Source of the DNA: an uncultured Clostridium sp.
Lineage (GTDB): Bacteria > Bacillota_I > Bacilli_A > Acholeplasmatales > Anaeroplasmataceae
Assembly: GCA_946538835.1 (NCBI GenBank)
Contig: CAMNGZ010000005.1
Span: 1 to 35,982, forward strand
Length of the DNA stretch: 35,982 bases
Reading direction: 5' to 3'
Below the pieces are notes generated by a model that was not told the DNA's origin, ran no database searches, and saw only the letters and a list, made by a program, of their open reading frames with translations. Position numbers and translations under genes: made by a program. Below, piece by piece: positions 1,723 to 35,956 of the stretch; within the stretch, counting starts at the first letter, position 1; each line of letters begins with the position of its first letter.

Positions 1723-1753
1723 AAAAAGCAATCCTAATAGTTATTAGAATTGC
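1723..1753 (-). terminator. Rho-independent terminator downstream of the 106-aa ORF
   Basis: Arms 1728-1738 / 1743-1753 (one G-U pair), loop 4 nt, T-run on the minus strand. Confidence 0.7.
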
Positions 1754-1760
1754 CATAATT

Positions 1761-2081
1761 TTATTTAATTAAATAAGCTTTTTTAGCTTTATTATACTTG
1801 ATAACATAAAGAATCTCAGTAATTCCTAACAACAAAATAGTCAAAAGGAATAAATAATCATAAACATTGATGATGACATTTTTAACAATTACTGCTGCTA
1901 CTATTATAGTTATAACCTCATATAAGCTAGCTAATATGATAGCTGACTTAGATAAATGAGGAGCCTCATCCTTATTCTTTAATGTAATATTAAGATGGAT
2001 AAAATAAATGAATAGAGCCATACAAGATAAGCTTATCACTGCTGCAATGTAGAAAAAATTATTTTCTAAAGTATTAATCAT
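1761..2081 (-). CDS. Small multi-pass membrane protein (106 aa), unknown function
   Basis: Several hydrophobic segments; start codon overlaps the stop of the giant ORF by 8 nt. Confidence 0.7.
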   Translation of the reverse strand: MINTLENNFFYIAAVISLSCMALFIYFIHLNITLKNKDEAPHLSKSAIILASLYEVITIIVAAVIVKNVIINVYDYLFLLTILLLGITEILYVIKYNKAKKAYLIK

Positions 2082-5000
2082 TCTTCTTACCTCTCTTTAC
2101 AATAATAAATAAAACCACAATTAAACCAGTTAATGCGACAACTGATGCATACACAATTGTGTATGTAATATTAGGGTTGCTATATTTGAATGTAATATCA
2201 GATTCATAACCATTTGTACCCTTAATAATAAGCCTATGTGTACCGTTTTTAACAACAGTATCTTCGTTAATCTTTACACCATCAAGTGTCAAATCCGCAT
2301 TGATATTATCAATGATAATCTTATTATAATAATTACCTTCGTTTTCTACAGGAACATAAGCATCAACTGTAAAATTCTTTGTGTAAACATAACCATTTAA
2401 ACCAGTTATCTTAATAATGTGATTACCAACGATATCATAATTATTACCATTAGTATAAGTTACATTATCAATCTCAACAGACTCATAACTATTAAGAATG
2501 TCAAATGAGGCGTTAAAATGATTTTTTTCTAATGTATTTTCATATACAAAATCAGGAGTAATCACAAAATGAATTTCTTCATTATATCCAGCTTCACCAA
2601 TAATAGTTACTGTATGATTACCAATAGTTTTGACTAATGAGTCATCATATAGTGCACCATCTAGATAAATAGTCGCATTAGGAATTGTGACATGTAATTG
2701 ATGGAATGAATCATTATCTTTAAATGTTGCAAGATAATCATTTCTAAACACATATTTGTTGTAATAACTATTAGTACCAAATACTTCTAATGTATAATTA
2801 CCAACATTAGAAATCTTGGTGTTAGAAATGTAATCACTACCATTTAGACGTAATTTAGCATGTGGTACATTGATAAATAATGTCTCGTTCTTATAAACAG
2901 CATTATTTTCAATTCCCATCACAATTTCACTAACAGTAATATCAAATACCTCACTAGCATTTAAACCTTCAAATTTAATTGAGTGGTTTCCTACTGTATT
3001 TAACAAATAATTATTATTTACTTCTTCGCCATCAACATAGATATTAGCGTTAGCATTAATTCTAACTTGTTCATTATATTTAGCATTATCAAAGATATTA
3101 GTATCAAGTTCAATATATACAAAATAATCATGTGAATAATTAACTCCACTAATTGTGATCTTATGATAACCATAATAATCAATTAGTGTATTACTATATT
3201 TGTTGCCATCTAAATATAATTTATAATCAAGATCTTTATTGAATATAGCAACTACCTTATCATTAACTTTATAGCTGTTAATTTTAGCATCTGTTAAAGA
3301 ATCATATAATTTAGTACCTTGGCTAGTTTCATTAATATTAACCAAGTAAGTCTTTACTACATTATTGTAATCTATAGTTTTAACAATATTATTACCAATA
3401 GTATTAATCGTTAATGGTAAATTAACTAATGAGTCATTCAAATAAATTTCTTTATAACCTAGATTACTTGATTCACTTAATACACATGATGCTGTCTTAT
3501 TACTGATTGATTCAATTTGTTGATCATCAAGTAATAAATCACTTCTCAATTCAAATTTATAACTAGATTTATAACCATTTACACCATAAATATCTAATTC
3601 ATATTTACCTTTAGTATTTAATTCACTAAAGTCATAATCTTCACCATTCAATGTAGCACGACTAATTTTAGATGATGTTAATGGAGTGATTGAAGAAGTT
3701 GAATCACTAACATTATTTACTACTTCTTTAACAACAATATTATAAATAACCTCTTCATTACTATTACCAATAAACTTAACCATGTGATTACCAATAGTAT
3801 CTAAATCGGACATATTGTTATCAATAATTACTCTAGCATTAGATTCAAATTCACACTTATTTTTATAACTAGCACCATTTTTTAAATCTGTCACTAAGTT
3901 AATATCAAAATAATATGTATTATTGTAATCAACACCACTTATAACAATTTTGTGTAATCCAAATGAATTTACTAAATCATTTTTAAAATATGGATTATCA
4001 TCAAGTGTTAATGAATATTTTAAAGTATCTCCAAATGTTACTTTGTTGAAATCTAATGAATTTAGATAAGCCTTAGATTTTGAATCATAGATAGTATCTG
4101 AAGGTGTTTCAAGAATAGTTACTTTAATATTCTCTCTGTAATCACCTTCACCAATTAATGTAATAATATTATTACCAATTGTATCAATAAAGTTTGTAGT
4201 AGTTTTATTTCCGTTAACTAAAACATCACCTAAAATTACATCATTTGAATTCTTGAATGTGACAATATTATTATAAGAATCCTTTAATTCATCTGAATTA
4301 AATAAAAGACTTGATTCAATCACAAAATCATAACTCTTAACATAATTACCTAAACCCTGAATTTCAAAATGATATCTACCAATTTTATAGATAGTTTCAT
4401 AATTATATTCTTCGCCATTTAAATATGTCTTAGCTTCAAGTGAATTATTGATAAATTTAGGACTAACTTGAGTGTTGTATTTTTGACTAGCTACATCACT
4501 TACATTAGCTTCAATAACGAAATTATATGGTGCTGATACATAATCATTTGTACCAATTACATTTAATGTGAAATTACCAACTTTATTAATTGTATCACCA
4601 CTAGAAATTACAAATTCATCAGCTTGTCCTTTGTTTATTACAAGGCTCTTAGCATCAGGAACTACAATAGTTCTTTGTGAATCATAAGTTCCATTATTTG
4701 AAATGCCTGAAACATTTTCAAAAATTGTGAATGTGTAATACTTGTCATCCTTAACATTTTCAAGTCCATGAACAAATAATGTGTGGGTACCAACAACACT
4801 ATATTCATCCCCAGAATTATACTTGATTCCGTCGATAAACATTTCAACACCACTAGCTTTGATTACAGCTTTAGTTTGATATTCTTCAGATATACCTTCA
4901 ATCAAATAATTAATTGTAAAATTATATATTTTCTTGTAGTCATTAACACCAATAACTGTGATTTCATAATCACCAACTGTATCAAATAATCCAAGCTCCT

Positions 5001-8000
5001 TTGATTCTCCATTTACTAGAACATCTTTAGCCACACCATTTAATGATAATCTGACTGACGAATCGAAAGATTCCTTGAAATTATTAATTGAACCATCTAC
5101 AGTTATTACAAATTCATATGTAGATTCATTATCAAATGATTTTAATAGACACTTATTGTTACCAATTGTGTTTACAATTTCATTTAAAGAAACCTCATTT
5201 TCATTTACAAATAATCTACCATTCGCTTTAGTAAATATTAATAAATTAAGATTATCAAATTTATATTCAACATTTTCTTCAATGAAACAATAATAATCAT
5301 TTTGATAGTCAACGCCTTTAATGCTGATTTTGTGGTATCCGAATGCTTCTACAACTTGATTATTGTATAATACATCATCTAAATAAATGTCATACAACAA
5401 GTCTTGATTAAAGGTTGGAATATTACTTGAAATACTAAACTTATTTTCAAAAGCGCTAGCCTTAGTAGTGAATAGAGGCATTGAGTCTTTGTTTATAGTT
5501 TCTGTAATAAGAACTTCTTCTACATGTTCATTTAAATTTACATCTGTAAATACTACTTTATTATTACCTACAGTATTAACTTGATATGGTAATTCTACAG
5601 ATGTACCATTTACTGAAACATCAAGGAATTTTAAAGTATTTGAAGTCAAAGATATTGTAACAATATCACTTGCATTATTTAAAACATTAATATCGCTGGT
5701 TAAACTAAATTTATATTCAGAAGATACATAATCATTTTCACCATAAATTTGAAGTGTGTATTGACCAACAAGTGATACTATTGTACCAACAGTATAATCT
5801 TCACCATTCAATTTAGCACCTGTGATATTACCATAAATTAGAGGAATAAATTCTTCATTAGAATCAGTGACTAAAACATTTTCTTTAACAACGACATTTA
5901 AATCCACTTCTTCACCATCAAAGCTAATCAATGATACCATATGATTACCGACTTTGTTGATAATTTTAGACTCTTGCAAGTCAACATAAGTTTCTTTAGC
6001 ATTAGTTTCAATTTCTTTATTTAGAATATAAATATCATTATCTTCTACATTCTTTAACAAATTAATATGTAGATAATAAGTTGTCTTATAATTAGCACCA
6101 ACTACTGTTATTTCATGTGTTCCCCAAACAGTGATTGAATCATTCTTTGTGTAGGAATTACCATCTAGCAATAGAGTGTATACTAAATCATCACCACAAG
6201 TGACACTCGCTTTATCTACACTATATTCTATAGCTTTAGCTTTAGAATCATATGCTCCATTAATTGTTTCTAAAATATCAATTGTATAATTTGTAATATT
6301 ACCATTTGCATCTTTTGATACTAACTTGTTATTTCCAATTGTATTTACCTTAAATGGTAATTCAATATTTTTACCATTTAATAAAAGTGAATCAAATACT
6401 AAATCCGAATCATATTCAATTGTAACAGCCTTATCAGATGTAGAATTTACATTCTTAATTTCACCAAGCAAATCAAAAGTGTAAATGTTTGAATAATTCT
6501 TTCCACTTACTTTCAAAGTATAAGAACCAATCTTATTAACCTTATCGCCACTATTAAAAGACTTACCATTTAATTCAATTTCAATACCATTACCATTTAC
6601 TACAGGAGAAATAGAACTTGTATAAATTTTACCATTTTCAAAATTAGAAATAGTTTCACGAACTAATACATTCTTAGTTATTTCTTCACCAAATCCCTTG
6701 AATGTAACCTTATGATTACCAATTGTATCAATTAAAGAATCACTATTTATTCCATCTACTAATACACTACTAGCATTTGATTTGAAAGAAGCATGAAGTA
6801 AATACTCATTGTCTAAGTCATCTACTAATTCAACATATGCATAATATGGCTTAGATTCATAATCATGACCTTTTACTACAATTTCATGGTAACCATAAGT
6901 ATTGATTAAATCTTTTTGATTATATGTCTTACCATCAACAAGCACTTGATACACAAGATTATCTTGGAATTTAGCAACAACTTCATCAATAGTATAAGAA
7001 TTAGCTTTAGCTTTTTCTTTTGATAGATATAGTGTGGAACCTGTTGTCTCTTCTAAAATAATGATCTCATATGAATCGATTACCCCATTCTTGTTGTAAG
7101 CTTTTAAGATATGTTTACCAATTTCATTTAATTCATAGTTGTCAATTTCAATCTCTTTATCATCTAATTCATATTTAACATATGATAAATTTCCATATTG
7201 ACTTAACGAAACATTAGTTTTCTTTTCAACCTTAGAATCAAGATTATTCATATTATCTTGAATTGGGCTCTTTAATGTAAATGAATAAGTATTCTTATAA
7301 CCATTTTCACCATTTATTATTAATGTATAAGTACCAATTTGATCAATTGTTTCACCATTATAAGCACTTGTAACTGTTTTTGATTGAGTTTCATAGCTTA
7401 ATAAGGCATTTGCTACCTTTCCTTTTATTACAGGAGTAATAGCCATATCACTAGATGTAGCATTAAGTACTTCTTCTTGAATCACAACGTTCTTACTAAT
7501 CTTTTTATTACCAACACCATTGAATGTTACTATGTATTTACCAACATTATTTAAAGTATTATCGCTAGAATTAATAACGGTTGATAAAGCGTTAGATTTT
7601 ACTTCATATGATAATGAATATGCAGTATCATCTAGGTTGTCAATCAAATTTATCATGAAATAATAAACATTTTGATAATCGATACCTTTTATTACAACCT
7701 TATGCATACCATATGTTGTGATATTTTTGGCATTAGCATCATCTTCATTTAATTCTAGTGTATATATTAATTCATTTCCAAAATCAAATGATAAAGAGTC
7801 TACACTATTAGCTAAAGCTTCATTTTCAGTCTTATAAATAGGGTTACCACTATTAGTTTCTTTAATAAAGATAGTATATGTTTCTTTTAAATTATTACCT
7901 ATTAAAACTAATGTATTCTTACCAAGAGTATTAAATTTAGTATTCAATACGTATTCTTTACCATTTAGTGTGCTAGAAAGAACATTCACTTTAGTAGTAT

Positions 8001-11000
8001 TAGCTTTAACACTAGTTGTATATTCATTTTTGATTGTATCATCATTAAATAAGACATCGCTTGAAATAGTGATTACATACTTAGTCAAATTACCAAAATA
8101 ATCTTCAAGAACTAGATTATATAAACCCAATGTATCCAAAGTAGGTAATGTTTCAATATTTACATCATCTAATTTTATACTCTTGTAATTTGACATATAT
8201 TTCTTAGTCAAAGAAATAGTATCAGAAATTTTTAATCCACTAGTAAGGATTTGATTATTATTTCCAGCAGTATAATCAATTTCATTTTCAATATCAAAAC
8301 GATACACATTAGTATAATCATTGTTACCATAAACAATTACTACATATGAACCAACAATATCAAAAGAACTATTTGATTTTATTTCAGTTTCAGCACTGTC
8401 TAACTTGTTCTCAGATAAACTCAACTTATTCATCTTTTCACAAGTGATGACTATTTTTTGATTATATGTCTTTTCTGGGCTAACACCATTTATCTTAAGA
8501 TTATCTTTAAGTCTGAACATATAAGTGGCTTCATATTTATTAGTACCACTTACGACTAACTTATAATTACCAATTTCGTCAACTAATACACTAGTCTCTA
8601 AAGAGTCAGCATTAAAATTAGTTGAAACACTAGCTTTACCATACATGATAATTGAAACGCTCTTAACCAAATCAATTTCATAAGTATAATCATCAAGTGA
8701 CAATGATGGTGTATCAAGTGTAGAATTCGCTTTAACTGAGTTAAAGAAAACTTCTTCTTTTACAACAAATTTTAATTCCTTAATATATTTATTACTACCA
8801 CGAACAAATAAGCTATGGTTACCAACTAAATCAATATTTTTTAAATAATAATTAGTTTCTTTATCTAAATCTAGTGTAGATAATGCAGTTTCATTAGAAG
8901 TCTTAAATGTAACATTATTTAGATATGTATATTTATTTGAATAATCAAGTAAAGTAGATGTTGCATCTGATTCATTGACTAATACATTAGTATTGATAAC
9001 TAAAGTGATTACATAATCAAGGTCATCTAGGTGTACTGTGATGTAGTGGTTACCTACTTCATCGTATAAGACACCTTGGCTAAACTCTTTACTATTCTTA
9101 TCCATGTCAAAATCATTATATGAAATACCATTACCATCTTTAAATGTGATAGTGGCATTATCAAGGCATACTAGTGATTGGGAATCAGTCTTAGTGCCAT
9201 TTAATGTAACAACTGGTTTAATGTAGAAATAAATAACTGTATTAGTAGATTCAGTAGTAGTTTCTAAACCATTTAGATTAAATGTAAATGTGAAATAATG
9301 CTTACCTACTGTTTTAATTTCTTGATTATCTTTATATATTTCAGTAATTCTATTTGTATTGTTATCAGTTAATGGGAATGTTAAATTAACTGAAACACCA
9401 TACATATTAAATTCAAATGAGTGACCATTAAAATAAACCGCTGCAATATTAATTACTTTACTGTCAATGATAATGTAGTTGATTATTTTTTCATATCCAC
9501 CACGAGCATTTATCTTTAATTGATATGTTCCGCTTCCAAGTTTAAGACCTTTTAGTTCTTCAACACCATTTATAGTTTTTAGATTAGAAACATCTTTACC
9601 AGTTTCACTAGTTAATTCAAATGATAAATCAGTAATGTTAAATGTGTAATAATCAAATATTGATTGATTACCAATATATGCCTTGGCATTTTCCACATTT
9701 AACTTAGGTGAAATAATAAAATCAATTGTTTCATCATCTAAAAGTAATTGATATTTACCAATAACATCTAGTCTATAACCAGATTTAAAATCTTCTACAT
9801 TTATAACATTATCATTATAAACATAAGTTAGACTTGCTGTCTCATAGCCTGCAAATAAGATTATTTTTGAATCAAAGAATTCATCACCATCTTTAATGTT
9901 GACACCCTTTTTAATTTCAAAATTATAAGTAACTTTATATGTACCTTTTTCACTATCAAAAGTTTCATTTCTTAAATTTTTACTGTTTTGATATCCTTTA
10001 TAATAAATATTTAATTCATATTTTCCGGCTTTAGAAATTGTTTGTCCACTAATGTATTCTGCAGTTTCAGTGCCATTCGAAATAGTCATGTAGTTACCAC
10101 AAACTGCAGGAATTACACCATGATCAAATATTTGATTAGTTTCTGTAACATTTAATTCTTCTGGTAAAACATAGAATTCGATAGTCTTAACTAATTCATT
10201 TGATTCATTATAGATTTCAAATTTATAGTCGCCCGCTTCTTTAACCTCTTGACCAAGTTCATATGCTTCTTTATTTAATTTAAATTTACCACCAGAAACT
10301 ACAGGTAGAACTGAACCAATATATTCTTTCTTATCAACTAAATTACATAAAGGAGTTATATAGAAATTTATTGTAACTTGGTAATTAGATTCACCAAATA
10401 AAGTTAAACTATTATTACCAGGATTGTATGTTTCAAATCCAGAATAGATTTTATGATTATTTAATATAGCATTAGCAGCATTACCAGTCCATGATAATGT
10501 AGTATGTTGAGTTTTATTGACGCTATTAAATTTATTAATAACTGTTTCACCATCTATTTTTTTTGAATAAGTGACAGGAATATTATCTGAAACATTTACT
10601 TTAGTTGTATCAATGTAAATAGTTGGGTTAATTGTAAAAGTATAGCTTGTAACCAGTTTATCATCTAATCCATATACTTCTAGTGTGTAGTCACCAAATG
10701 AGTCAATAGTTTCTCCTGATGCAAATTCCTTACCATTTAATTTAACATTTAAGTTTGATAAACTTTCAAATGTAATTTTAGGAGCATCTAGAGTTTCATA
10801 TTGAGTACCACTTACTAAACCTTCTATATCAAATACATTTAAGTTATATGTTTTAACAATACCATTATCTAAAGTAACTACTAATGTATTTAAACCTTTC
10901 TTAGTAAGACTAAATCCGGTAGTTACTTCTTCACCATTAAGTAAAGCACTACCTTCGAAATCAATAATGTCCCCTAATAAATAAATATCATTATTAACTA

Positions 11001-12171
11001 AAGGTAATGTTTCGGTTCTTGTATATGTAATACCATTTATATGAAGCTTAACTTCATATAAATATACATTTTCTCCTTTATTAACACTATACAAGATTGA
11101 ATCTTCTAAATTTTTAGAAATAACTTCATTATTACCATTTAAATCATATGATGTTAAGTCGTCATATACCAATTTAGAATCATTATTAATTTCTTTAATA
11201 GCATCTTTAATATTAATATTTGAAATATTAGAAACCTTATTTAATGATGATTCATAATATGATACTTCACCATTTTCAAATTTTATATTTGTATTCTTTA
11301 AAGGAAGTGTCTTAACTAATTCATTTGATTCATTATATAAATAAATTGAATTTAAGTCTGATAATGCAAGATTATCTAGATAAGAAACTTCTTTATATGT
11401 TCCTTCAATAGTTCTAGTATTTTCACCATTTACTAAATAAGTCTTGGCATCATCAAGTATAACAAGTTCTTTTTGAGAAACTAATTTAGCACTATTTGAC
11501 ACTTCAAATAAAGTTGTTATATTTTCAAAATCTGAAGCTTTTACTAAATTTGAGTTAGCAATTGTATAAATATTATTTTCAAAAACAACAGCTTGAGTTA
11601 AATCAATATTTACTGCAATAGTTTCCTCTTCAAAAGTATCAGATAACTTAATTAATGTTGTAGCATTTTCAACTAAATATAAATTATTTTTAAAATATAA
11701 AGAATTTAGAACAGCAGTCTCTGTTGTAACTTCTTTTACAATTTCTAAGTTTTTGTCAAGGATATAAGTTGTGTTTGCCTCACCACTTACGCTTAAAACC
11801 AAAAAATCATTTAAAACATTTACAAAATTTAATGTTAAATCTTTATCAAATGACTTAACTAATCCGTTATATTTTAAAGTCAAAGAGTCTTTAAAGGAAA
11901 CAAAAATATTATGATTTAAGTCTACATAATCATAGTTATTTTCATCAATTGTTTCTAGCTTATATTCAAGCTTTTCTTCAAATTCATCTCTACTTATTTC
12001 ATTTAGTTTTGATCTATCCAAATTAAGTGATGCGATAGCTTCATCAGATAGATTTGACGAAATTGAATAATAATTTGTTGAATCACTTTCACTTGCTAAA
12101 GTTTTAAATTCAGCAAAAAAGAATAATACCGCTATCAGTATTACTGTAATAATTTTTTTAAATTTTCTCAT
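2074..12171 (-). CDS. Giant repetitive cell-surface protein (3365 aa) with signal peptide, N-terminal propeller-like region, many ~65-70 aa beta-rich modules and a C-terminal TM anchor
   Basis: Single uninterrupted ORF; N-term MRKFKKIITVILIAVLFFFAEFKTLAS; C-term TIVYASVVALTGLIVVLFIIVKRGKKND; recurrent motifs such as NTIGNNKLV, DTIGNHxVxFxG, GxYTLxIxGxNxYxxxYxF. Confidence 0.9.
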   Translation of the reverse strand: MRKFKKIITVILIAVLFFFAEFKTLASESDSTNYYSISSNLSDEAIASLNLDRSKLNEISRDEFEEKLEYKLETIDENNYDYVDLNHNIFVSFKDSLTLKYNGLVKSFDKDLTLNFVNVLNDFLVLSVSGEANTTYILDKNLEIVKEVTTETAVLNSLYFKNNLYLVENATTLIKLSDTFEEETIAVNIDLTQAVVFENNIYTIANSNLVKASDFENITTLFEVSNSAKLVSQKELVILDDAKTYLVNGENTRTIEGTYKEVSYLDNLALSDLNSIYLYNESNELVKTLPLKNTNIKFENGEVSYYESSLNKVSNISNINIKDAIKEINNDSKLVYDDLTSYDLNGNNEVISKNLEDSILYSVNKGENVYLYEVKLHINGITYTRTETLPLVNNDIYLLGDIIDFEGSALLNGEEVTTGFSLTKKGLNTLVVTLDNGIVKTYNLNVFDIEGLVSGTQYETLDAPKITFESLSNLNVKLNGKEFASGETIDSFGDYTLEVYGLDDKLVTSYTFTINPTIYIDTTKVNVSDNIPVTYSKKIDGETVINKFNSVNKTQHTTLSWTGNAANAILNNHKIYSGFETYNPGNNSLTLFGESNYQVTINFYITPLCNLVDKKEYIGSVLPVVSGGKFKLNKEAYELGQEVKEAGDYKFEIYNESNELVKTIEFYVLPEELNVTETNQIFDHGVIPAVCGNYMTISNGTETAEYISGQTISKAGKYELNIYYKGYQNSKNLRNETFDSEKGTYKVTYNFEIKKGVNIKDGDEFFDSKIILFAGYETASLTYVYNDNVINVEDFKSGYRLDVIGKYQLLLDDETIDFIISPKLNVENAKAYIGNQSIFDYYTFNITDLSFELTSETGKDVSNLKTINGVEELKGLKLGSGTYQLKINARGGYEKIINYIIIDSKVINIAAVYFNGHSFEFNMYGVSVNLTFPLTDNNTNRITEIYKDNQEIKTVGKHYFTFTFNLNGLETTTESTNTVIYFYIKPVVTLNGTKTDSQSLVCLDNATITFKDGNGISYNDFDMDKNSKEFSQGVLYDEVGNHYITVHLDDLDYVITLVINTNVLVNESDATSTLLDYSNKYTYLNNVTFKTSNETALSTLDLDKETNYYLKNIDLVGNHSLFVRGSNKYIKELKFVVKEEVFFNSVKANSTLDTPSLSLDDYTYEIDLVKSVSIIMYGKASVSTNFNADSLETSVLVDEIGNYKLVVSGTNKYEATYMFRLKDNLKINGVSPEKTYNQKIVITCEKMNKLSLSENKLDSAETEIKSNSSFDIVGSYVVIVYGNNDYTNVYRFDIENEIDYTAGNNNQILTSGLKISDTISLTKKYMSNYKSIKLDDVNIETLPTLDTLGLYNLVLEDYFGNLTKYVITISSDVLFNDDTIKNEYTTSVKANTTKVNVLSSTLNGKEYVLNTKFNTLGKNTLVLIGNNLKETYTIFIKETNSGNPIYKTENEALANSVDSLSFDFGNELIYTLELNEDDANAKNITTYGMHKVVIKGIDYQNVYYFMINLIDNLDDTAYSLSYEVKSNALSTVINSSDNTLNNVGKYIVTFNGVGNKKISKNVVIQEEVLNATSSDMAITPVIKGKVANALLSYETQSKTVTSAYNGETIDQIGTYTLIINGENGYKNTYSFTLKSPIQDNMNNLDSKVEKKTNVSLSQYGNLSYVKYELDDKEIEIDNYELNEIGKHILKAYNKNGVIDSYEIIILEETTGSTLYLSKEKAKANSYTIDEVVAKFQDNLVYQVLVDGKTYNQKDLINTYGYHEIVVKGHDYESKPYYAYVELVDDLDNEYLLHASFKSNASSVLVDGINSDSLIDTIGNHKVTFKGFGEEITKNVLVRETISNFENGKIYTSSISPVVNGNGIEIELNGKSFNSGDKVNKIGSYTLKVSGKNYSNIYTFDLLGEIKNVNSTSDKAVTIEYDSDLVFDSLLLNGKNIELPFKVNTIGNNKLVSKDANGNITNYTIDILETINGAYDSKAKAIEYSVDKASVTCGDDLVYTLLLDGNSYTKNDSITVWGTHEITVVGANYKTTYYLHINLLKNVEDNDIYILNKEIETNAKETYVDLQESKIINKVGNHMVSLISFDGEEVDLNVVVKENVLVTDSNEEFIPLIYGNITGAKLNGEDYTVGTIVSLVGQYTLQIYGENDYVSSEYKFSLTSDINVLNNASDIVTISLTSNTLKFLDVSVNGTSVELPYQVNTVGNNKVVFTDVNLNEHVEEVLITETINKDSMPLFTTKASAFENKFSISSNIPTFNQDLLYDIYLDDVLYNNQVVEAFGYHKISIKGVDYQNDYYCFIEENVEYKFDNLNLLIFTKANGRLFVNENEVSLNEIVNTIGNNKCLLKSFDNESTYEFVITVDGSINNFKESFDSSVRLSLNGVAKDVLVNGESKELGLFDTVGDYEITVIGVNDYKKIYNFTINYLIEGISEEYQTKAVIKASGVEMFIDGIKYNSGDEYSVVGTHTLFVHGLENVKDDKYYTFTIFENVSGISNNGTYDSQRTIVVPDAKSLVINKGQADEFVISSGDTINKVGNFTLNVIGTNDYVSAPYNFVIEANVSDVASQKYNTQVSPKFINNSLEAKTYLNGEEYNYETIYKIGRYHFEIQGLGNYVKSYDFVIESSLLFNSDELKDSYNNIVTFKNSNDVILGDVLVNGNKTTTNFIDTIGNNIITLIGEGDYRENIKVTILETPSDTIYDSKSKAYLNSLDFNKVTFGDTLKYSLTLDDNPYFKNDLVNSFGLHKIVISGVDYNNTYYFDINLVTDLKNGASYKNKCEFESNARVIIDNNMSDLDTIGNHMVKFIGNSNEEVIYNIVVKEVVNNVSDSTSSITPLTSSKISRATLNGEDYDFSELNTKGKYELDIYGVNGYKSSYKFELRSDLLLDDQQIESISNKTASCVLSESSNLGYKEIYLNDSLVNLPLTINTIGNNIVKTIDYNNVVKTYLVNINETSQGTKLYDSLTDAKINSYKVNDKVVAIFNKDLDYKLYLDGNKYSNTLIDYYGYHKITISGVNYSHDYFVYIELDTNIFDNAKYNEQVRINANANIYVDGEEVNNNYLLNTVGNHSIKFEGLNASEVFDITVSEIVMGIENNAVYKNETLFINVPHAKLRLNGSDYISNTKISNVGNYTLEVFGTNSYYNKYVFRNDYLATFKDNDSFHQLHVTIPNATIYLDGALYDDSLVKTIGNHTVTIIGEAGYNEEIHFVITPDFVYENTLEKNHFNASFDILNSYESVEIDNVTYTNGNNYDIVGNHIIKITGLNGYVYTKNFTVDAYVPVENEGNYYNKIIIDNINADLTLDGVKINEDTVVKNGTHRLIIKGTNGYESDITFKYSNPNITYTIVYASVVALTGLIVVLFIIVKRGKKND
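3330..7860 (-). repeat. Higher-order protein repeat in the giant ORF: six copies of an 'ETxxG...GxHxIxxxGxxYxxxYY' landmark module
   Basis: Landmark Glu codons at 7860, 7050, 6270, 5502, 4110 and 3330; spacings 270, 260, 256, 464 and 260 codons. Confidence 0.85.
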
Positions 12172-12205
12172 ATACTATACCTTTTTAATTTTTAATTTTT
12201 TTCAT

Positions 12206-12242
12206 TAAATAAGAGTTTAATTGATACCAATCAAAAAATCAA
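12206..12242 (-). promoter_or_regulatory. Candidate promoter region for the giant surface-protein gene
   Basis: Two possible sigmaA pairings: TTGATT-N17-TAAACT (12214-12242) or TTGATT-N17-TATTTA (12206-12234); neither strong. Confidence 0.3.
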
Positions 12243-12253
12243 GAATATTATTA

Positions 12254-12279
12254 AAAAAAGTCCCCTAAAGGACTTTTTT
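12254..12279 (-). terminator. Rho-independent terminator downstream of the P-type ATPase
   Basis: aaaaaagtcc / ggactttttt hairpin just after the stop codon at 12283. Confidence 0.8.
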
Positions 12280-12282
12280 AGC

Positions 12283-14244
12283 TTAATATTTTTTAGAGTT
12301 TGCACGCATAGCATTTAAAATAGCAATAATCGCAACACCAACATCTCCGAATACAGATAACCACATATTTGCCACACCAAAGGCTGCAAGAATTAAAATT
12401 AATACTTTAATACATAATGCAAATATAATATTCTCGTATACAATTCTCATAGTCTTTCTAGCAACCTTTTTAGCTGTTACGATACTCTTTAAATCATCAT
12501 GCATCAAAACGATATCACTCGCTTCTATTGCTGCATCACTTCCGACACCACCCATTGAAATACCAATATCAGATTTCATAATTACAGGGGCGTCATTAAT
12601 TCCATCACCTACGAAACATAATAATTCATTTTCTTTTTTATCTTTTAATAAGTTATCTACTTCTTCAACTTTATTTTGTGGAAGCAAGTTTGATTTAAAT
12701 TCAGTCAAGCCAATCTCTTTTGCAACATTAGACGCAATCTTTTCATTATCTCCTGTCAACATAATTGTACGAGATCCAATAGAATTTAGATAAGCAACAG
12801 TATCTTTTGCATCTTCTTTAATTTCGTCTTCAATTAAAATATAACCAATATAATTACCATTATGAGCTACATAAACGATAGTGCCAGGGTCTATCACTTC
12901 TTTAGCATAAACATTAAACATTTGAAGTAACTTTAAGTTACCTGCCAAAATGGTATCTTTACCTTTTGTCGCCTTAATACCTTTACCTGCAATGTTTTCT
13001 AAGGAATATCCAAAATTTTCCACCTTATTAGCTTCTAAATATCTATTCTTAATAGAGATAGCAATAGGATGATTAGATGCTTCTTCGGCAATATATGCTA
13101 ATTTTAAAATATCTTCATTTGTTTCATTATAGATTTTTTTAATCGCAAAGTTTCCTTTAGTTAATGTACCTGTTTTGTCAAACACAAATACACTAGCCTT
13201 ATTGAAACGCTCTAAATGAATTGAGCCTTTAATTAAAACACCATTTCTACTTGCGCCACCAAGTCCTGAGAAAAAAGACATAGGTACACTAATCACAAGT
13301 GCACATGGACATGAAACAACAAGAAAAGATAAAGCTCTGTAAATCCAAGTGTGGAAAGTTAACCAGTTATTATCTTTAAATCCAATAAATAGTGGTGGAA
13401 TAACCGCAAGAAGAATTGCAAGTATTACCACAATAGGAGTGTAATATTTAGCAAATTTAGAGATAAAAGCTTCAGATTCTGACTTTTCATTACTAGCATT
13501 TTCAACTAAATCAAGAATTTTTGATACTGTTGACTGTCCAAACTCTTTCGTTGTCTTTACTAATATTGTCTTCGTTAAATTAACAGTACCACTTAATACA
13601 TTATCTCCTTCAATAACATCTTGTGGCAATGATTCACCAGTTAAAGCTTTTGTATCTAGAGTTGTATCACCACTAATAATTACTCCATCAAGTGGAATCT
13701 TTTCACCTGGCTTAATTTGAATGATATCACCAACTGCTACATCAGAAGGGTCTACCATCTCAAATGTTTCTCCTTTTTGCAAATTAGCATAATCAGGACG
13801 AATATCCATCAAATCTTTAATAGATTTTCTTGATTTACCTGCTGCATAACCTTGGAACCATTCTCCAACTTGATAAAATAATAATACTGCACAAGCTTCA
13901 TCAAATCCTTCAGGTTCTCCTGTAGAAATACCAGTGTAAATACCAAGTCCGAAAGCTCCTAGGGTCGCAATAGCCATTAAGAAGTTTTCGTCAAACACTT
14001 GACCATGCACAATATTAATAAAGCTCTTCTTTAATACATCATGTCCAATATATACATATATTAAAAAATATAATCCAAATGGTAATAAAAATCCAACCTT
14101 GTCATTATTAACAAGACTAGCTAACCCCTTAGGAAAGGTATTACCGAATCCATTCTTCAACACTAAATTTGTAATTAGAACAATTAAAAATAAGCATAAA
14201 GATATGATTATTCTCTTTAAATTTCTTTTCAACTTCTTACTCAT
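12283..14244 (-). CDS. cadA: Heavy-metal-translocating P1B-type ATPase, Cd/Zn/Pb (CadA/ZntA-like), without N-terminal HMA domain
   Basis: SCPCALVIS TM motif, DKTGTLTKG phosphorylation motif, NHPIA, TGES, GDGINDAP. Confidence 0.9.
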   Translation of the reverse strand: MSKKLKRNLKRIIISLCLFLIVLITNLVLKNGFGNTFPKGLASLVNNDKVGFLLPFGLYFLIYVYIGHDVLKKSFINIVHGQVFDENFLMAIATLGAFGLGIYTGISTGEPEGFDEACAVLLFYQVGEWFQGYAAGKSRKSIKDLMDIRPDYANLQKGETFEMVDPSDVAVGDIIQIKPGEKIPLDGVIISGDTTLDTKALTGESLPQDVIEGDNVLSGTVNLTKTILVKTTKEFGQSTVSKILDLVENASNEKSESEAFISKFAKYYTPIVVILAILLAVIPPLFIGFKDNNWLTFHTWIYRALSFLVVSCPCALVISVPMSFFSGLGGASRNGVLIKGSIHLERFNKASVFVFDKTGTLTKGNFAIKKIYNETNEDILKLAYIAEEASNHPIAISIKNRYLEANKVENFGYSLENIAGKGIKATKGKDTILAGNLKLLQMFNVYAKEVIDPGTIVYVAHNGNYIGYILIEDEIKEDAKDTVAYLNSIGSRTIMLTGDNEKIASNVAKEIGLTEFKSNLLPQNKVEEVDNLLKDKKENELLCFVGDGINDAPVIMKSDIGISMGGVGSDAAIEASDIVLMHDDLKSIVTAKKVARKTMRIVYENIIFALCIKVLILILAAFGVANMWLSVFGDVGVAIIAILNAMRANSKKY

Positions 14245-14256
14245 ATATTTCTCCTT

Positions 14257-14278
14257 TAGTTGAACAAGTATTCAACTA
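14257..14278. promoter_or_regulatory. ArsR/SmtB-type operator-like inverted repeat upstream of cadA
   Basis: TAGTTGAA-CAAGTA-TTCAACTA, 8-bp perfect arms, abutting the SD (AAAGGAG) of cadA. Confidence 0.55.
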
Positions 14279-14292
14279 TTTCTCAAAAATTA

Positions 14293-14309
14293 ATAGCGCT
14301 ATGCGCTAT
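14293..14309. other. GC-rich hairpin between the HMA gene and cadA
   Basis: ATAGCGC-TAT-GCGCTAT perfect 7-bp arms, 3 nt after the HMA stop codon, followed by AATTTTT on the minus strand. Confidence 0.55.
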
Positions 14310-14312
14310 CAA

Positions 14313-14519
14313 TTAATCATTTATTTCAAAATCAGGTTCAACCTTTTTAGCAGCCTTTAAAACTTTCTTTAAAACATCTTCAGATTCGCTATCAAGAATC
14401 ATTTTTTGAGTCATGTAATTGATTTTACAATCATTTACTCCATCAACTTTCTTAATAGCTTCTTCACATTTTAATGCACATGCTGCGCAATCAACTTCAA
14501 TATCATATGTTTTCTTCAT
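14313..14519 (-). CDS. Stand-alone heavy-metal-associated (HMA) domain protein
   Basis: 68 aa, EVDCAACALKCEEAIKKVDGV matches the HMA CxxC signature. Confidence 0.85.
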   Translation of the reverse strand: MKKTYDIEVDCAACALKCEEAIKKVDGVNDCKINYMTQKMILDSESEDVLKKVLKAAKKVEPDFEIND

Positions 14520-14533
14520 AAATAATTTCTCTC

Positions 14534-14851
14534 CTATTTATCTTCTCTTATATGTTCTAAGCCATACTTAAATATTGTAGAAATATGATCATCATCAAAT
14601 GAATAATATACTTCTTTACCATCTTTTCTAGCTTTAACCAACTTAGCATCACGTAATATTCTTAGCTGATGGCTTACTGCAGACTTTTGCATATTCACAC
14701 ATTCACAAATATCCGTAACATTAAGCTCATTCTCTTCTATTGTATATAAAATTTTACTTCTAGTTGGGTCACCTAACACCTTAAACAGATTAGATACTTC
14801 TTCTATTTCGTGTTCATTTGGCATTGATACCTTTATATCCTCTAAAGACAT
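14534..14851 (-). CDS. ArsR/SmtB-family metal-responsive repressor
   Basis: Winged helix KSAVSHQLRILRDAKLVKARKDGKEVYYSF; alpha5 motif DxHx10HxxE; operonic with HMA protein and P-type ATPase. Confidence 0.88.
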   Translation of the reverse strand: MSLEDIKVSMPNEHEIEEVSNLFKVLGDPTRSKILYTIEENELNVTDICECVNMQKSAVSHQLRILRDAKLVKARKDGKEVYYSFDDDHISTIFKYGLEHIREDK

Positions 14852-14873
14852 ATTATCAACTCCTTACGTCCTT

Positions 14874-14902
14874 ATTATAGTCACAGTTGAATAGTTTGTC
14901 AA
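14874..14902 (-). promoter_or_regulatory. Consensus sigmaA promoter of the arsR-HMA-cadA operon
   Basis: Minus strand TTGACA-N17-TATAAT, exact consensus and spacing. Confidence 0.85.
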
Positions 14903-14906
14903 CTGT
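14883..14906. promoter_or_regulatory. ArsR-family operator overlapping the -35 box
   Basis: ACAGTTGA-N8-TCAACTGT, perfect 8-bp arms; core AGTTGA-N8-TCAACT shared with the 14257-14278 site. Confidence 0.75.
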
Positions 14907-14922
14907 TTAACTGTATTATATT

Positions 14923-14945
14923 AAAAAAGCCCAGAAGGGCTTTTG
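14923..14945 (-). terminator. Rho-independent terminator of asnA
   Basis: agccc-aga-agggct hairpin flanked by A and T runs, adjacent to the asnA stop. Confidence 0.8.
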
Positions 14946-15950
14946 TTATAACAATTCAATATTATGTTCTTTTAAGGCTTTTATATCTTCCTCAGGCCAA
15001 ATAGAAGCTTGAACTTCACCGATATGAGCTTTCTTTAGCATATACATACAAAGTCTTGATTGTCCAATTCCACCGCCAATAGTAAGTGGTAAAACATCAT
15101 TTAAGATATCTTGGCAATATGGTGTATTAATCTTATCATAATCCTTATGTTCTTTTAATTGCTTAACTAATGACTTAGCATCTACTCTAATACCCATACT
15201 AGATAATTCAAACGCGATATCTAATACATCATAATATACTAGGATATCACCATTTAATTTCCAATCATCATAGTCAGGAGCTCTACCATCATGTGGCTTT
15301 CCTGATTTAAGCTTAGAGCCTATTTGCATCAAGAATACTGCCTTATGTAATTTAGTAATTTCATATTCTCTTTGACTAGGCTCAAGATTTGGATACATAT
15401 TTTCAAGTTCTTGGGTAGTAATAAAGAAAATATCTTTTGGCAAATCATGTTTAATACCATATTTCTTTTCAATCATTTGCGCTAATTGTCTAATAGTCAA
15501 ATAAATTTGTTTAACAGTCTTCTTTAAATATTTTCTAGTTCTATCCTTCTTTGTGATAATCTTTTCCCAATCCCATTGATCCACATAAGCAGAATGAATA
15601 GAGTCTAAATCTTCATCACGACGAATTGCGTTCATATTTGTATATAAACCGCAACCTTCTGAAAAACCATATTTATGTAGTGCATTACGCTTCCACTTAG
15701 CTAATGATTGAACAATTTCAACATCTTCTAAAATATTTTTAACATCAAAATTAACTCTACGTTCAACGCCATTTAAATTGTCGTTCAATCCTGTTGAAGG
15801 GAAGACAAAAAGTGGAGCACTGACACGAGTTAAATTTAATTTCTTGCATAATTTTCTTTCAAAATTATCTCTAGTATATTTGATAGCTTCTTCTGTTTCT
15901 AATACAGATAGCTTAGATTTATAATTTTCTGGTAATAATAAACGTTTCAT
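14946..15950 (-). CDS. asnA: Aspartate--ammonia ligase (asparagine synthetase A)
   Basis: 334 aa; NGVERRVNFDVKN, EIVQSLAKWKRNAL, DQWDWEK, GGGIGQSRLCM. Confidence 0.93.
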   Translation of the reverse strand: MKRLLLPENYKSKLSVLETEEAIKYTRDNFERKLCKKLNLTRVSAPLFVFPSTGLNDNLNGVERRVNFDVKNILEDVEIVQSLAKWKRNALHKYGFSEGCGLYTNMNAIRRDEDLDSIHSAYVDQWDWEKIITKKDRTRKYLKKTVKQIYLTIRQLAQMIEKKYGIKHDLPKDIFFITTQELENMYPNLEPSQREYEITKLHKAVFLMQIGSKLKSGKPHDGRAPDYDDWKLNGDILVYYDVLDIAFELSSMGIRVDAKSLVKQLKEHKDYDKINTPYCQDILNDVLPLTIGGGIGQSRLCMYMLKKAHIGEVQASIWPEEDIKALKEHNIELL

Positions 15951-16027
15951 TTTTTCACCCTTTTTTTCCTATATTATATCATAAAAGAATATCAGCATAT
16001 ATAAATATTTAAAACCAATATAAATAA

Positions 16028-16051
16028 ATAGAAGTGGGTCCCCACTTCTAT
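16028..16051. terminator. Strong hairpin downstream of the sulfatase, probable terminator
   Basis: ATAGAAGTGGG-TC-CCCACTTCTAT, 11-bp perfect arms just after the stop at 16056; no uninterrupted U-tract. Confidence 0.5.
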
Positions 16052-16055
16052 CATA

Positions 16056-17663
16056 TTATTTGGTTTTATTTATGCTTAAACAATACATAATAATTGGCAC
16101 TAACCCCATACCACTATCTATCTTATTTTTAATATCATCCTCATAACCATCGGGTACATATTGACTAACTTTAGACCACAACATTTTTTTAGTAAGTCTT
16201 GAGTCTAAATCAAATGGTACGATATCACTTGTACGCTCTAACCACTTTAAAGTCTCATATCTCATATCCGCTATAATCTCTTTATACTTAGGATTATCAA
16301 TTTGATTAAATAATTCAAAAGGATCATTTATCAGATCATAGAATTCATCTTTAGTGTGACTTCTTGAAACATATTTATATTCCTTATTCCTACACATGAT
16401 ACCTTTGTCATGCAATTTATCATCTTTTTGAGCAATCTTTTTAGGATAATATTCATTATTAGGGCTTGTACCATTAGGACCATCCGAATGATATTCATCT
16501 GCCCAAGTTTCACCTGGCTCTCTACCGCCTTCTGAGAAAACATAATCTCTACCACAAACATCCTTGTTTGCAATATTGGCTACCAAGTTTCGTCCAAAGT
16601 TTGTGTGTGTTTCTTTTGTACCAGAGATATCTAGACAAGTCTTATAAAAATCAACAAGTTCAACTAATGAATCATTGACACCAGGACTAACTTTATACTC
16701 TTTAGGGAGTTTAACCACAAATGGTACATTAGTTAAACAATCTTCAAAACTATTCTGACACTTTTCCACAAGAGAATAATCTCCAGTAAAATCTCCATGA
16801 TCACTAAAAAAGAAAATTGCTGAATCATCATAAGTATTAGTTTCTTTTAAAGCTTTAACAATTTTCCCAAATTGATAATCAACTTTCATACACATACCAA
16901 GATATGTCGCACGAAGCTCATTATAATCATCTTCTGTATAGTCAGACATCTTCTCTTCTTTATTTATTGCATAAAGAATTGGAGCCTTATCCAAAGTATC
17001 ACTTAATTTAATACGCATTTTAAGTTTAGTTCTATCAATTGCACTAAAATAAGGATTCTCAACTTGATATGGTACATGTGGATAAAATAAACCAAGGAAG
17101 ATACAAAGAGGTCTATCATCAAGAGGATTTTTAATACGTTCAATAGCTGCGTCTATAGCTTGGTCATCAGCTGAATAATTCAAACCATTCTCATCCACAC
17201 CAAGTTCTCCTTTAAAATGAGAATAAAAATTTTTATCCCCCATTTCTAACTTCCTATCAACTTTTGGTCCTGGCGCTCTTTTAGTTGGATCATTGTAATA
17301 AATCTCATCAGCTAAAGATTCAGTCCAACCATCATATTGACCAGCAGTTAAATCATTTCTATCATTCATCCAAACATAGTATCCACTATCTTTTAATTCT
17401 TTAAGAAGACTAGACTCACCAGGACGAAGTAAATACGACATAGTTCTATGTCCGTTCGTATGTGGATATAGTCCTGTCATAAAGCTACATCTGCTAGGAA
17501 CACATACAGGATTTTGACAAAATGCATTAGAAAAGCTAACCGCATCATTTTTTATAATATCATCAAGATTTGGAGTGTGACTAGCCTCATTTCCTAAATG
17601 ATGTAATGAATCAGCTCGCATTTCATCAGGATTAAAAATAATAATCGTAGGTCTTTTTTTCAT
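16056..17663 (-). CDS. Cys-type sulfatase (alkaline phosphatase superfamily), apparently cytoplasmic
   Basis: NPVCVPSRCSFMTGLYPHTNG contains the C-x-P-S-R formylglycine motif; FFFSDHGDFTGDY; no signal peptide. Confidence 0.9.
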   Translation of the reverse strand: MKKRPTIIIFNPDEMRADSLHHLGNEASHTPNLDDIIKNDAVSFSNAFCQNPVCVPSRCSFMTGLYPHTNGHRTMSYLLRPGESSLLKELKDSGYYVWMNDRNDLTAGQYDGWTESLADEIYYNDPTKRAPGPKVDRKLEMGDKNFYSHFKGELGVDENGLNYSADDQAIDAAIERIKNPLDDRPLCIFLGLFYPHVPYQVENPYFSAIDRTKLKMRIKLSDTLDKAPILYAINKEEKMSDYTEDDYNELRATYLGMCMKVDYQFGKIVKALKETNTYDDSAIFFFSDHGDFTGDYSLVEKCQNSFEDCLTNVPFVVKLPKEYKVSPGVNDSLVELVDFYKTCLDISGTKETHTNFGRNLVANIANKDVCGRDYVFSEGGREPGETWADEYHSDGPNGTSPNNEYYPKKIAQKDDKLHDKGIMCRNKEYKYVSRSHTKDEFYDLINDPFELFNQIDNPKYKEIIADMRYETLKWLERTSDIVPFDLDSRLTKKMLWSKVSQYVPDGYEDDIKNKIDSGMGLVPIIMYCLSINKTK

Positions 17664-17705
17664 ACTATTCCTTTCTTTCTAGTTTATTTTTATTATATCT
17701 TATTT

Positions 17706-17734
17706 TTGATTTTTTTTCACAAATAGTTTATCAT
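17706..17734 (+). promoter_or_regulatory. Candidate promoter for the anSME gene
   Basis: TTGATT-N17-TATCAT upstream of SD AAAGGTGAT and the ATG at 17752. Confidence 0.45.
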
Positions 17735-17751
17735 TTAATAAAGGTGATAAT

Positions 17752-18861
17752 ATGAAATCCGCTTCTATTTTAATTAAACCAGCTAGTGGTTTATGTAACC
17801 TAAATTGTAAATATTGCTTCTACAAAGATGAAATGTCAAACCGAAAAACTAATTCTTATGGTTTTATTAATAAGACCACTACATCAAACATATTAGATAA
17901 ATTTTTGAATATCAAAGATTTAACTAATTTAACTATTGCATTTCAAGGTGGAGAACCAACCTTGATTGGACTTGATTATTACAAAGAATTTGTTAAACTA
18001 GCTAATGATAAAAACTTCAATAATGTTAATATTTACTACACAATTCAAACAAATGCCACACTATTAAATGAAGAATTTGTAAAATTCTTTAGTGAGAACA
18101 ATTTTTTAGTCGGTGTATCGCTTGATGGTATCAAAAATACAAATGATTTATATAGACTTGATAACAATAATAAACCTGTTTATGATTCAATTTTAAACGG
18201 GATTAACTTACTTAAAAAATATAATGTATCGTTCAATATTTTAACTGTAATTACTAAAGATGTATCTAAAAACATTAATACTATATACAAGTTTTATAAA
18301 GATAATAATTTTAAATATACACAATATATCCCTGTTCTAAATAAGTTTAATAACTCCATGTGCTCATATTCATTAACGCCCCATGATTACACTATTTTTT
18401 TACAAAAATTATTTGATTTATATTACAAAGACATTATAAATAATAATTATGTCTACAATAGATATTTTGAAAATCTAATTTGTTTAATCTTAAATATAAA
18501 TCCAGAAGATTGTTCGCTAAATGGCCATTGTTCAATTCAATTTGTAATCGAAGCCAATGGTAATGTCTATCCTTGCGACTTCTATTGCTTAGACAAATAC
18601 TTATTAGGAAATATAAACACAAATACAGTGGAAGAACTATTAAAAGAAAAAGCTATAGATTTCATTAAAGAATCATCAAATTTAAATACTAAATGTACCA
18701 CATGCAAATATTTTAAATTATGCCGTTCAGGTTGTAAAAGATATAAAGATGGCATAAACAGGAACTATTATTGTTCTAGCTTCATTAAGTTTTTTGATAT
18801 GAATTTAGATAGACTTATAGAATTATCTAGGATTTTACCTCAAATTAAAAGAAACGTCTAA
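17752..18861 (+). CDS. Anaerobic sulfatase-maturating enzyme (radical SAM/SPASM)
   Basis: CNLNCKYCFYKDE (CxxxCxxC), FQGGEPTL, C-terminal SPASM-type cysteine cluster; divergent from a Cys-type sulfatase. Confidence 0.92.
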   Translation: MKSASILIKPASGLCNLNCKYCFYKDEMSNRKTNSYGFINKTTTSNILDKFLNIKDLTNLTIAFQGGEPTLIGLDYYKEFVKLANDKNFNNVNIYYTIQTNATLLNEEFVKFFSENNFLVGVSLDGIKNTNDLYRLDNNNKPVYDSILNGINLLKKYNVSFNILTVITKDVSKNINTIYKFYKDNNFKYTQYIPVLNKFNNSMCSYSLTPHDYTIFLQKLFDLYYKDIINNNYVYNRYFENLICLILNINPEDCSLNGHCSIQFVIEANGNVYPCDFYCLDKYLLGNINTNTVEELLKEKAIDFIKESSNLNTKCTTCKYFKLCRSGCKRYKDGINRNYYCSSFIKFFDMNLDRLIELSRILPQIKRNV

Positions 18862-29494: not shown

Positions 29495-30808
29495 TTAGAT
29501 TTCATGATTGCAGAAAACTTCTCTTCCGTTTGTAACAGTACTTGATACAGTAATCTTTGACCACTCTTCTTCAGTACCAACGAAATAAATAGTTTTGAAT
29601 TTTGAGCATCCAGTAAATGCACTATCATTAATTTGAGACATCTTAGTGTTCTTAATGACTATACTTGTTAATTCAGAACAGTTAGCAAACACATTTGATT
29701 GTATCATATAAAGATTCTTTGATAATGTTATATCCTTTAAGCTTGTGCATGAGCTAAAAGCATATGTTTGAACACCTGAAACAAAATCAGCCATATTAAA
29801 ATTAGTTAATTTCTCGCAATTTGCAAATGCGTATGATCCAATTGAATTAACTTCAAGAGTATCAAAAGAAGTTATCTTAGAACCATATAACGCATATGCG
29901 CCAATCATCTTAATATTTTTAGTTAATTTGATACTTGTAGCATTTGAATTGTAGAACGCAAATTCATAAATTCCATCAACTGCGTAAGTTTGACCCATAA
30001 ATGTAGTAGTTTCTGGTAGTTCAAATGTTGTTTGATCTAGTTTCTTATAACCAGATACATCACAAGTCTTTGTTTCATTATCATATACAAAATAGTAATC
30101 ACTATTTTCTTTTTCAAAATTGACACCATAATTGGCAGTTAATCCCAAGAAATATTCATTACCTTTTTCATTTACTTGGTTAGAAAATTGTCCACTCTTA
30201 TAATATAAACCTTTTAAGCTTGAAGCTTTTTCAAAATCATAAGCTGAAACAGAATCAAGTTTATTAGCATATACATTTCTTAATTTTGTATCACCACTGA
30301 ATGTGTAGCCATTCAATTTAGTTACATTAGATGGTAAAAAAATATCAGTCATAGATGAGCAATTTCTAAATGCGCCATAACCAATATAATTTAGAGTTTC
30401 AGGCAATTCTACATTGACAAGGGCAGAGCATCTATCAAATGCGAAATTATCAATTTTTTCCACACCGCCAAATGAAACATATCTTAAGTTTGTGCAACGT
30501 GCAAATGATTGATCTCCAATTTGTTTAACATTGTTAGGAATAATGACTTTTTCAATAACTGTATTTGAAGCAAATGCACTCTTATCAATTGAGGTAACAT
30601 TATATGATGTTCCGTCAATTTTAACTATATTAGGTATTTCAACTACTTTTTGACTTGAATTAAGTCCCTTAACTGATGCTTCATTTGTCTTTTTGTTTAT
30701 TGTAAATGATATATCTTTTACTACTTCATCACTAGCTAAATCTTGATTACAAGATCCTAGTGTTAACAATAATAATGGTAATAATACTGCAAATTTTCTT
30801 TTTTTCAT
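29495..30808 (-). CDS. BspA-type leucine-rich-repeat (LRR_5/TpLRR) surface lipoprotein
   Basis: MKKRKFAVLLPLLLLTLGSC lipobox; repeats such as FARCTNLRYVSFGGVEKIDNFAFDRCSALVNVELPETLNYIGYGAFRNCSSM. Confidence 0.9.
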   Translation of the reverse strand: MKKRKFAVLLPLLLLTLGSCNQDLASDEVVKDISFTINKKTNEASVKGLNSSQKVVEIPNIVKIDGTSYNVTSIDKSAFASNTVIEKVIIPNNVKQIGDQSFARCTNLRYVSFGGVEKIDNFAFDRCSALVNVELPETLNYIGYGAFRNCSSMTDIFLPSNVTKLNGYTFSGDTKLRNVYANKLDSVSAYDFEKASSLKGLYYKSGQFSNQVNEKGNEYFLGLTANYGVNFEKENSDYYFVYDNETKTCDVSGYKKLDQTTFELPETTTFMGQTYAVDGIYEFAFYNSNATSIKLTKNIKMIGAYALYGSKITSFDTLEVNSIGSYAFANCEKLTNFNMADFVSGVQTYAFSSCTSLKDITLSKNLYMIQSNVFANCSELTSIVIKNTKMSQINDSAFTGCSKFKTIYFVGTEEEWSKITVSSTVTNGREVFCNHEI

Positions 30809-35335: not shown

Positions 35336-35956
35336 ATGAAAAAAGAAAAAGTGAATAATAGAAAATACGTATTATCGAGAAAGATTTTATTCTTATCTAT
35401 AATTATCATTGTTCCACTTCTAGTCTTAATTATCTGGTTCATTTCAGGATTTGTTAACTCAAGAGTTGGAAATGATATTAAAACTAAATTTGAAATTGAA
35501 AATGCTAATGAAGTTAATTATCAACAAGCAACAAGCTTTAATGACTTCAACCTTAAATTTTATTTAACTGACTATACTAAAGCTAGTGAATCATCAAATG
35601 GTTCTCTAACTGGTGAATATCAAGTTTACTACAATTCAGATGTTAAAGTAACTAATTTAAAGATGTCATTCACAGCAGCTGACTATTGGAGTCACTACGT
35701 TGCAACTCCAAAATCTAAATCAAGCGTTACAATCAGTACATCAATTCCTTCAAGTAATTCAACACTTGGAACATTAACTCTAGATTATAAGAGTAAAAAT
35801 GGCTGGGGTATCGATGCTACAACTTCTACTACCCCTGACATCTATTTATATCTATCTTATACATATGTAGATAAAGATGGTAAAAAGAGCGATAAGATGA
35901 CAATCTTAACTTACAAATTCAATGATTTTAGTTCTTCAATAAGATTTAAAGAATAA
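35336..35956 (+). CDS. Single-TM exported hypothetical protein (206 aa)
   Basis: ORF with SD; N-term TM KILFLSIIIIVPLLVLIIWFISGFV; beta-rich extracytoplasmic domain. Confidence 0.75.
   Translation: MKKEKVNNRKYVLSRKILFLSIIIIVPLLVLIIWFISGFVNSRVGNDIKTKFEIENANEVNYQQATSFNDFNLKFYLTDYTKASESSNGSLTGEYQVYYNSDVKVTNLKMSFTAADYWSHYVATPKSKSSVTISTSIPSSNSTLGTLTLDYKSKNGWGIDATTSTTPDIYLYLSYTYVDKDGKKSDKMTILTYKFNDFSSSIRFKE

Follow-up and report, generated by a model that had tools for sequence, protein, structure and literature searches.

The window (the whole 35,982-nucleotide stretch of DNA that was analyzed) encodes a real and conserved giant surface protein, P0001. Its kind is already recognizable, that of a long Ig-like stalk protein; new are its domain family, its partner and its setting. 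Together with the small membrane protein gene P0003 at its 3′ end, it probably constitutes a two-gene unit for a TM-anchored Ig-like surface fibre with an N-terminal binding head, in an apparently wall-less, rumen-type bacterium. The features of the locus are listed below.

1727..1754, minus strand: intrinsic-terminator-like hairpin 3′ of the partner gene (12 pairs and a T run)
1761..2081, minus strand: partner CDS P0003, a 106-aa polytopic membrane protein, with an 8-bp overlap with the giant CDS
2074..12171, minus strand: giant surface protein CDS P0001, 3365 aa (ORF list and translation; colinear homologues of 3148 and 2696 aa)
2086..2172, minus strand: C-terminal TM segment at residues 3334-3362, with the basic tail KRGKKND after it (hydropathy)
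2179..11019, minus strand: array of 43 Ig-like modules, residues 385-3331 (self-trained HMM, alignment, AlphaFold two-module model, Foldseek)
2926..7470, minus strand: stretch with five copies of a super-repeat of four modules (~260 aa), at residues 1568-2357 and 2555-3082 (lag-4 similarity)
11017..11949, minus strand: N-terminal blade-like domain, residues ~75-385, probably a β-propeller head (blade-like repeats by eye, low-confidence model, similar domain in the relative L047)
12088..12171, minus strand: signal peptide region, residues 1-28, MRKFKKIITVILIAVLFFFAEFKTLA (hydropathy, translation)
12252..12280, minus strand: inverted repeat resembling a terminator, AAAAAAGTCC TTTAGG GGACTTTTTT, in the interval that separates the giant gene from the P-type ATPase gene upstream of it (by eye)

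The first-pass annotation of this DNA had described an uninterrupted ORF of 3365 aa at 2074-12171, with a signal peptide, a C-terminal TM segment, a KRGKK tail and no LPxTG motif. Translation and hydropathy agreed on each of these points and placed the gene on the minus strand. A mass of 378 kDa and a pI of 4.6 were computed from the translation. Hydropathy revealed two hydrophobic segments only, residues 1-28 and 3334-3362. The LPxTG motif was absent from the translation, which separates P0001 from LPxTG adhesins.

Dozens of ~65-70 aa modules had also been proposed. The motif proved real: 43 conserved Gly positions were in register, with a mean spacing of 68.7 aa (range 56-92), and 42 modules scored >15 bits with the self-trained HMM, a score exceeded by no match in shuffled P0001 controls (n=50). 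However, the modules begin only at about residue 385, and the first ~360 mature residues form a different domain. Module-to-module similarity peaked at a lag of four (58.0 versus 35.7 when permuted; none of 5000 permutations was as high), and the five ~260-aa blocks, of four modules each, were 31-41% identical to one another. The array probably grew by duplication both of single modules and of the four-module block.

Structure prediction with AlphaFold used 37 two-module stretches from P0001 and two relatives as input. Two modules (residues 3082-3205) were modelled as small all-β domains (pLDDT 94.7, pTM 0.82) of about five strands each, with a long C-terminal hairpin. Foldseek matches to this model were mainly Ig-like tandem domains (SGBP-B, best E 1.9e-4; Sidekick; Rib; SraP), and the S-layer proteins SlaA/SlaB and Sap were also among them; query TM-scores were only about 0.3, so that none of the solved structures is close to the module. 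In addition, a weak alignment was obtained between the conserved G-x-Y-x-L of the module and GxYxC, which Ig domains have in their F strand. The earlier description of the modules as Ig-like was supported by the model and by these matches, with each module showing an all-β Ig-like arrangement, at the level of fold class but not of any family.

As the first-pass annotation had claimed, no named domain could be assigned at Pfam and NCBIfam cut-offs. Neither the whole protein nor its single modules reached the curated cut-off of any Pfam or NCBIfam model (Big, MBG, BiPBP_C and Rib included), modules of the homologues likewise fell below every such cut-off, and a PDB sequence scan with whole P0001 gave no match. 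Weak PDB sequence matches to Ras GTPases were taken as chance. It has been reported that Ig strands are lost in the Rib domain (PMC6936399), a Rib domain being defined here as an Ig fold in which core strands are missing (B-D-E sheet). By analogy with Rib, the module could be an Ig domain in reduced form; the likeness consists of five strands in the module model and Rib among the Foldseek matches.

Homologues of P0001 were all missed by a single-sequence search of 80 relatives, and profiles were required. With the module profile, colinear giants were identified in two genomes of the same family and another genus than the genome of the window (G000), one of 3148 aa (G084) and one of 2696 aa (G085), which aligned from residue ~408 to the tail. 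Both retain the module order, the TM segment and the tail, with hundreds of invariant columns, and towards its end the G084 giant carries additional modules that are nearly identical. A partial gene for 1720 aa, cut by the contig end, was present in a rumen MAG labelled 'Clostridia bacterium Tb.RUG.47' (L047). Among 160 genomes of the order, module carriers were limited to three (G000, G084 and G085) plus a fragment in G050. No relative of P0001 was found in IMG/VR at the search sensitivity used.

The N-terminal domain was modelled from two sequences with a mean pLDDT of 39; about 70 residues were confident, and these formed β meanders. Foldseek on this low-confidence model returned almost exclusively β-propellers (BBS1, BamB, Nup159, Tako8), suggesting that residues ~75-385 likely form a β-propeller (a fold defined by a closed ring of four-stranded blades). 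A similar domain is located at the N-terminus of the L047 relative. Since BLAST revealed no significant similarity between the two N-termini, their homology rests on position and pattern. When relatives were searched with the P0001 N-terminus, nothing but chance matches emerged (an FN3-like protein and a phage-tail-like gene). The G084 and G085 giants are without a P0001-type N-terminal domain, and the head is therefore not essential to the family.

A small polytopic membrane protein gene lies directly 3′ of the giant gene in all three complete loci. In G085, the P0003 homologue (E 4.9e-6) overlaps the giant gene end by 1 bp, and in G084 a similar 99-aa protein is encoded 1 bp after the giant gene. 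We also detected a P0003 homologue at a contig start (L069:1-1371; G001:C159) in G001, a genome of the same genus as the window. The C-terminal tail of this homologue is long, acidic, cytoplasmic and repetitive (VETxVEETT repeats). The bases before it encode, in another frame, a hydrophobic stretch and a basic tail, implying that this assembly may lack a giant gene, probably one cut off at the contig end. Judging from gene position, our guess is that the partner probably assists in fibre insertion, anchoring, coupling or signalling. With regard to the locus boundaries, a terminator scan, which reported consensus matches only, found 2 versus 1.5 expected, and the inverted repeat upstream of the giant gene was not flagged by it.

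Much of Anaeroplasmataceae is peptidoglycan-deficient, with a mixed state within the family, and it has been noted that sortase loss would reduce surface proteins and adhesion (PMC10868615). We detected PBP transpeptidase domains in 22 of 100 relatives, and 5-6 Mur ligase matches in each of four PBP-positive family members tested. In G000, G084 and G085, no PBP transpeptidase domain, Mur ligase or sortase was found. These carriers are 63, 92 and 78% complete, respectively, and with incomplete MAGs, a missing gene counts for little in a single genome. The pattern nevertheless agrees with the published mixed state of Anaeroplasmataceae, to which the window probably belongs. The host of P0001 appears to be without a cell wall, which the absence of PBPs and Mur ligases supports rather than proves. 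Anchoring by a TM helix instead of sortase, also proposed earlier, agrees with the translation, the hydropathy and the lack of sortase in the three carriers, and such an anchor fits wall-less cells. Bacteria without peptidoglycan and sortase still need surface attachment; to judge from this locus, one solution could be giant Ig-like stalks that are anchored in the membrane and encoded together with a membrane partner. We rejected TM anchoring of module arrays as a marker of wall-less cells, as PBPs were present in 7 of 21 other module-bearing genomes tested (members of families f12, f9 and f14 with PBPs; f16, f19, f23 and f24 without). The occurrence of shorter TM-anchored arrays in PBP-positive lineages indicates that this anchoring is not specific to wall loss.

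Among these shorter arrays, those of f12 comprise 11-14 modules with a TM segment. PF16403 is present in f12 arrays as a separate N-terminal domain, and repeated sub-threshold matches to BiPBP_C were observed in several members of the module family. At two f12 loci (L082:146-7821 and L083:3220-9711), the partner position after the array is taken by a different and larger membrane protein (~595 aa), with a VWA protein and a PP2C_2 phosphatase next, an order that recalls VWA-phosphatase signalling clusters. Homology between P0003 and this larger protein (G166, G188) was not detectable by hhalign. A miniature form was also identified, a 424-aa protein with a signal peptide, a ~190-aa N-terminus, about three modules, a TM segment and KKK, whose gene lies between genes read as acetate kinase (ackA) and DNA polymerase III alpha (dnaE). 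Its modules were linked to those of P0001 by hhalign (E 9e-13), and its N-terminus was not linked to that of P0001. This ~424-aa surface protein, which has no Pfam or NCBIfam match, was observed at L073:697-1968 and also in L074, L076-L079 and L081, in several PBP-negative families.

The first-pass annotation was largely right, but it had overlooked the head domain, the four-module super-repeat, the membrane partner, the colinear homologues and the wider family with its 424-aa miniature. Tentatively, and at somewhat short of even chances, the modules could represent an uncatalogued reduced Ig-like family of this bacterial class that builds TM-anchored stalks (3 to >40 beads), each large array having a dedicated membrane partner, and that replaces sortase-anchored adhesins in peptidoglycan-less lineages. 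Since modules were found in 58 genomes out of a sample of 395 from the class yet remain uncatalogued, with neither a Pfam nor an NCBIfam model, a new domain model would annotate many unnamed proteins, including the 424-aa protein. Our literature search yielded no paper on Ig-like adhesins of giant size, either in wall-less bacteria or in Acholeplasmatales.

Several other loci were noted. G000 contains a second giant gene, for 2547 aa with a signal peptide and a C-terminal TM segment (L038, G000:C3:10000-29000). At 2081-17812 on the plus strand, it shares a conserved arrangement with genes for a ~250-aa lipoprotein-like protein, a ~465-aa membrane protein and an 886-888-aa TraG/VirB4-type P-loop protein. 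The same gene order occurs in G084, G085 and G086 and partly in G031, and the whole resembles a type IV secretion-like locus that includes a gene for a giant surface protein. Within the window, a Cys-type sulfatase (CVPSR motif) adjoins a divergent radical-SAM/SPASM gene at 16056-18861, the product of which is probably the anaerobic maturase of this sulfatase. The gene at 29495-30808, among the mutS, mutL and miaB genes, encodes a lipoprotein-like protein whose leucine-rich repeats are BspA-type (LRR_5). Two proteins of 533 and 206 aa (6-1607 and 35336-35956) have an N-terminal TM segment and no Pfam match.

In the mechanism that we propose, P0001 would be exported by its signal peptide and stopped in the membrane by the C-terminal helix, leaving the positively charged tail in the cytoplasm. 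The 43 Ig-like domains would then stand off the cell as a string of beads, with the N-terminal, probably β-propeller, head at the fibre tip as the putative binding part. A Rib domain spans about 4 nm per ~80 aa (PMC6936399); with each module somewhat shorter than this, we estimate a fibre length of 130-180 nm for 43 modules. The surface-exposed, fibre-like character claimed by the first-pass annotation stood. The adhesin part of that claim we infer from architecture, since a stalk that carries a head is best read as adhesive.

Other explanations were considered. It is very improbable that the long ORF is an assembly or annotation artefact, either a chimera or a decayed repeat gene. The sequence is repetitive and comes from a MAG, and related genes are cut at contig ends (L047 and probably G001). 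However, DNA identity in the repeat families shown is only about 60-83%, so that the copies are too divergent to collapse and the gene did not arise in assembly from identical repeats. There is also no internal stop across 3365 codons at about 26% GC, and intact colinear full-length homologues, with their invariant columns, are present in two independent assemblies. Together, these sequence comparisons make misassembly of the locus unlikely.

Alternatively, P0001 could be a structural envelope protein, present in many copies and forming a glycocalyx-like or S-layer-like coat, which would protect or stiffen a wall-less membrane and bind no particular target. We consider this unlikely, although it would fit the lack of detected PBPs and Mur ligases in the carriers, the headless giants of G084 and G085 and the S-layer proteins among the Foldseek matches. 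Carriers are too rare in the order for the fibre to replace the wall in general, PBP-positive genomes also have related arrays with a TM anchor, and single extended chains do not by themselves form a lattice. Less likely again is a contact or load sensor, in which the array would be the external portion of a signalling complex and the signal would be relayed inward by the small membrane protein, which carries a long acidic cytoplasmic tail in G001. Conservation of the partner at the 3′ end of the giant gene is in line with this possibility, as are the f12 loci, in which the genes after the array encode a membrane protein whose cytoplasmic part is large, a VWA protein and a PP2C phosphatase. 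However, P0003 itself is almost without a cytoplasmic domain, no PP2C_2 was found in the carriers and no homology was detected between P0003 and the membrane protein of f12. An adhesive fibre with a membrane partner is the reading that we prefer.

Several known systems resemble this fibre in part. Rib-domain rods of streptococcal alpha-like proteins (PF08428; PMC6936399) are built from small reduced Ig-like domains in tandem and project a different N-terminal domain as a rod, an arrangement that P0001 probably shares. Repeat number varies in both families, and Rib tandem structures (6s5y, 8yke) were among our Foldseek matches. In contrast to these rods, P0001 has no Rib sequence match and no LPxTG/sortase anchoring, and its modules are divergent instead of near-identical. 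Pfam Ig-like families (Big; BiPBP_C, PF06832; Bact_surface_Ig-like, PF16403) belong to the same Ig-like class, but the modules reach none of their cut-offs. RSP, which IncHI plasmid conjugation requires (PMC6764697), is likewise a large bacterial Ig-like surface protein and mediates cell contact; however, it is exported by a plasmid type IV secretion system, whereas the P0001 gene is located outside such a locus. Giant1-4 of Apilactobacillus kunkeei (PMC12863079), which are sortase-anchored, share with P0001 a very long extracellular chain, a special N-terminal domain and a long repeat region. Their head is a β-solenoid, whereas that of P0001 is blade-like (in a low-confidence model), and P0001 differs from them further in its TM anchor without LPxTG, its dedicated membrane partner gene and its host without detectable peptidoglycan genes.
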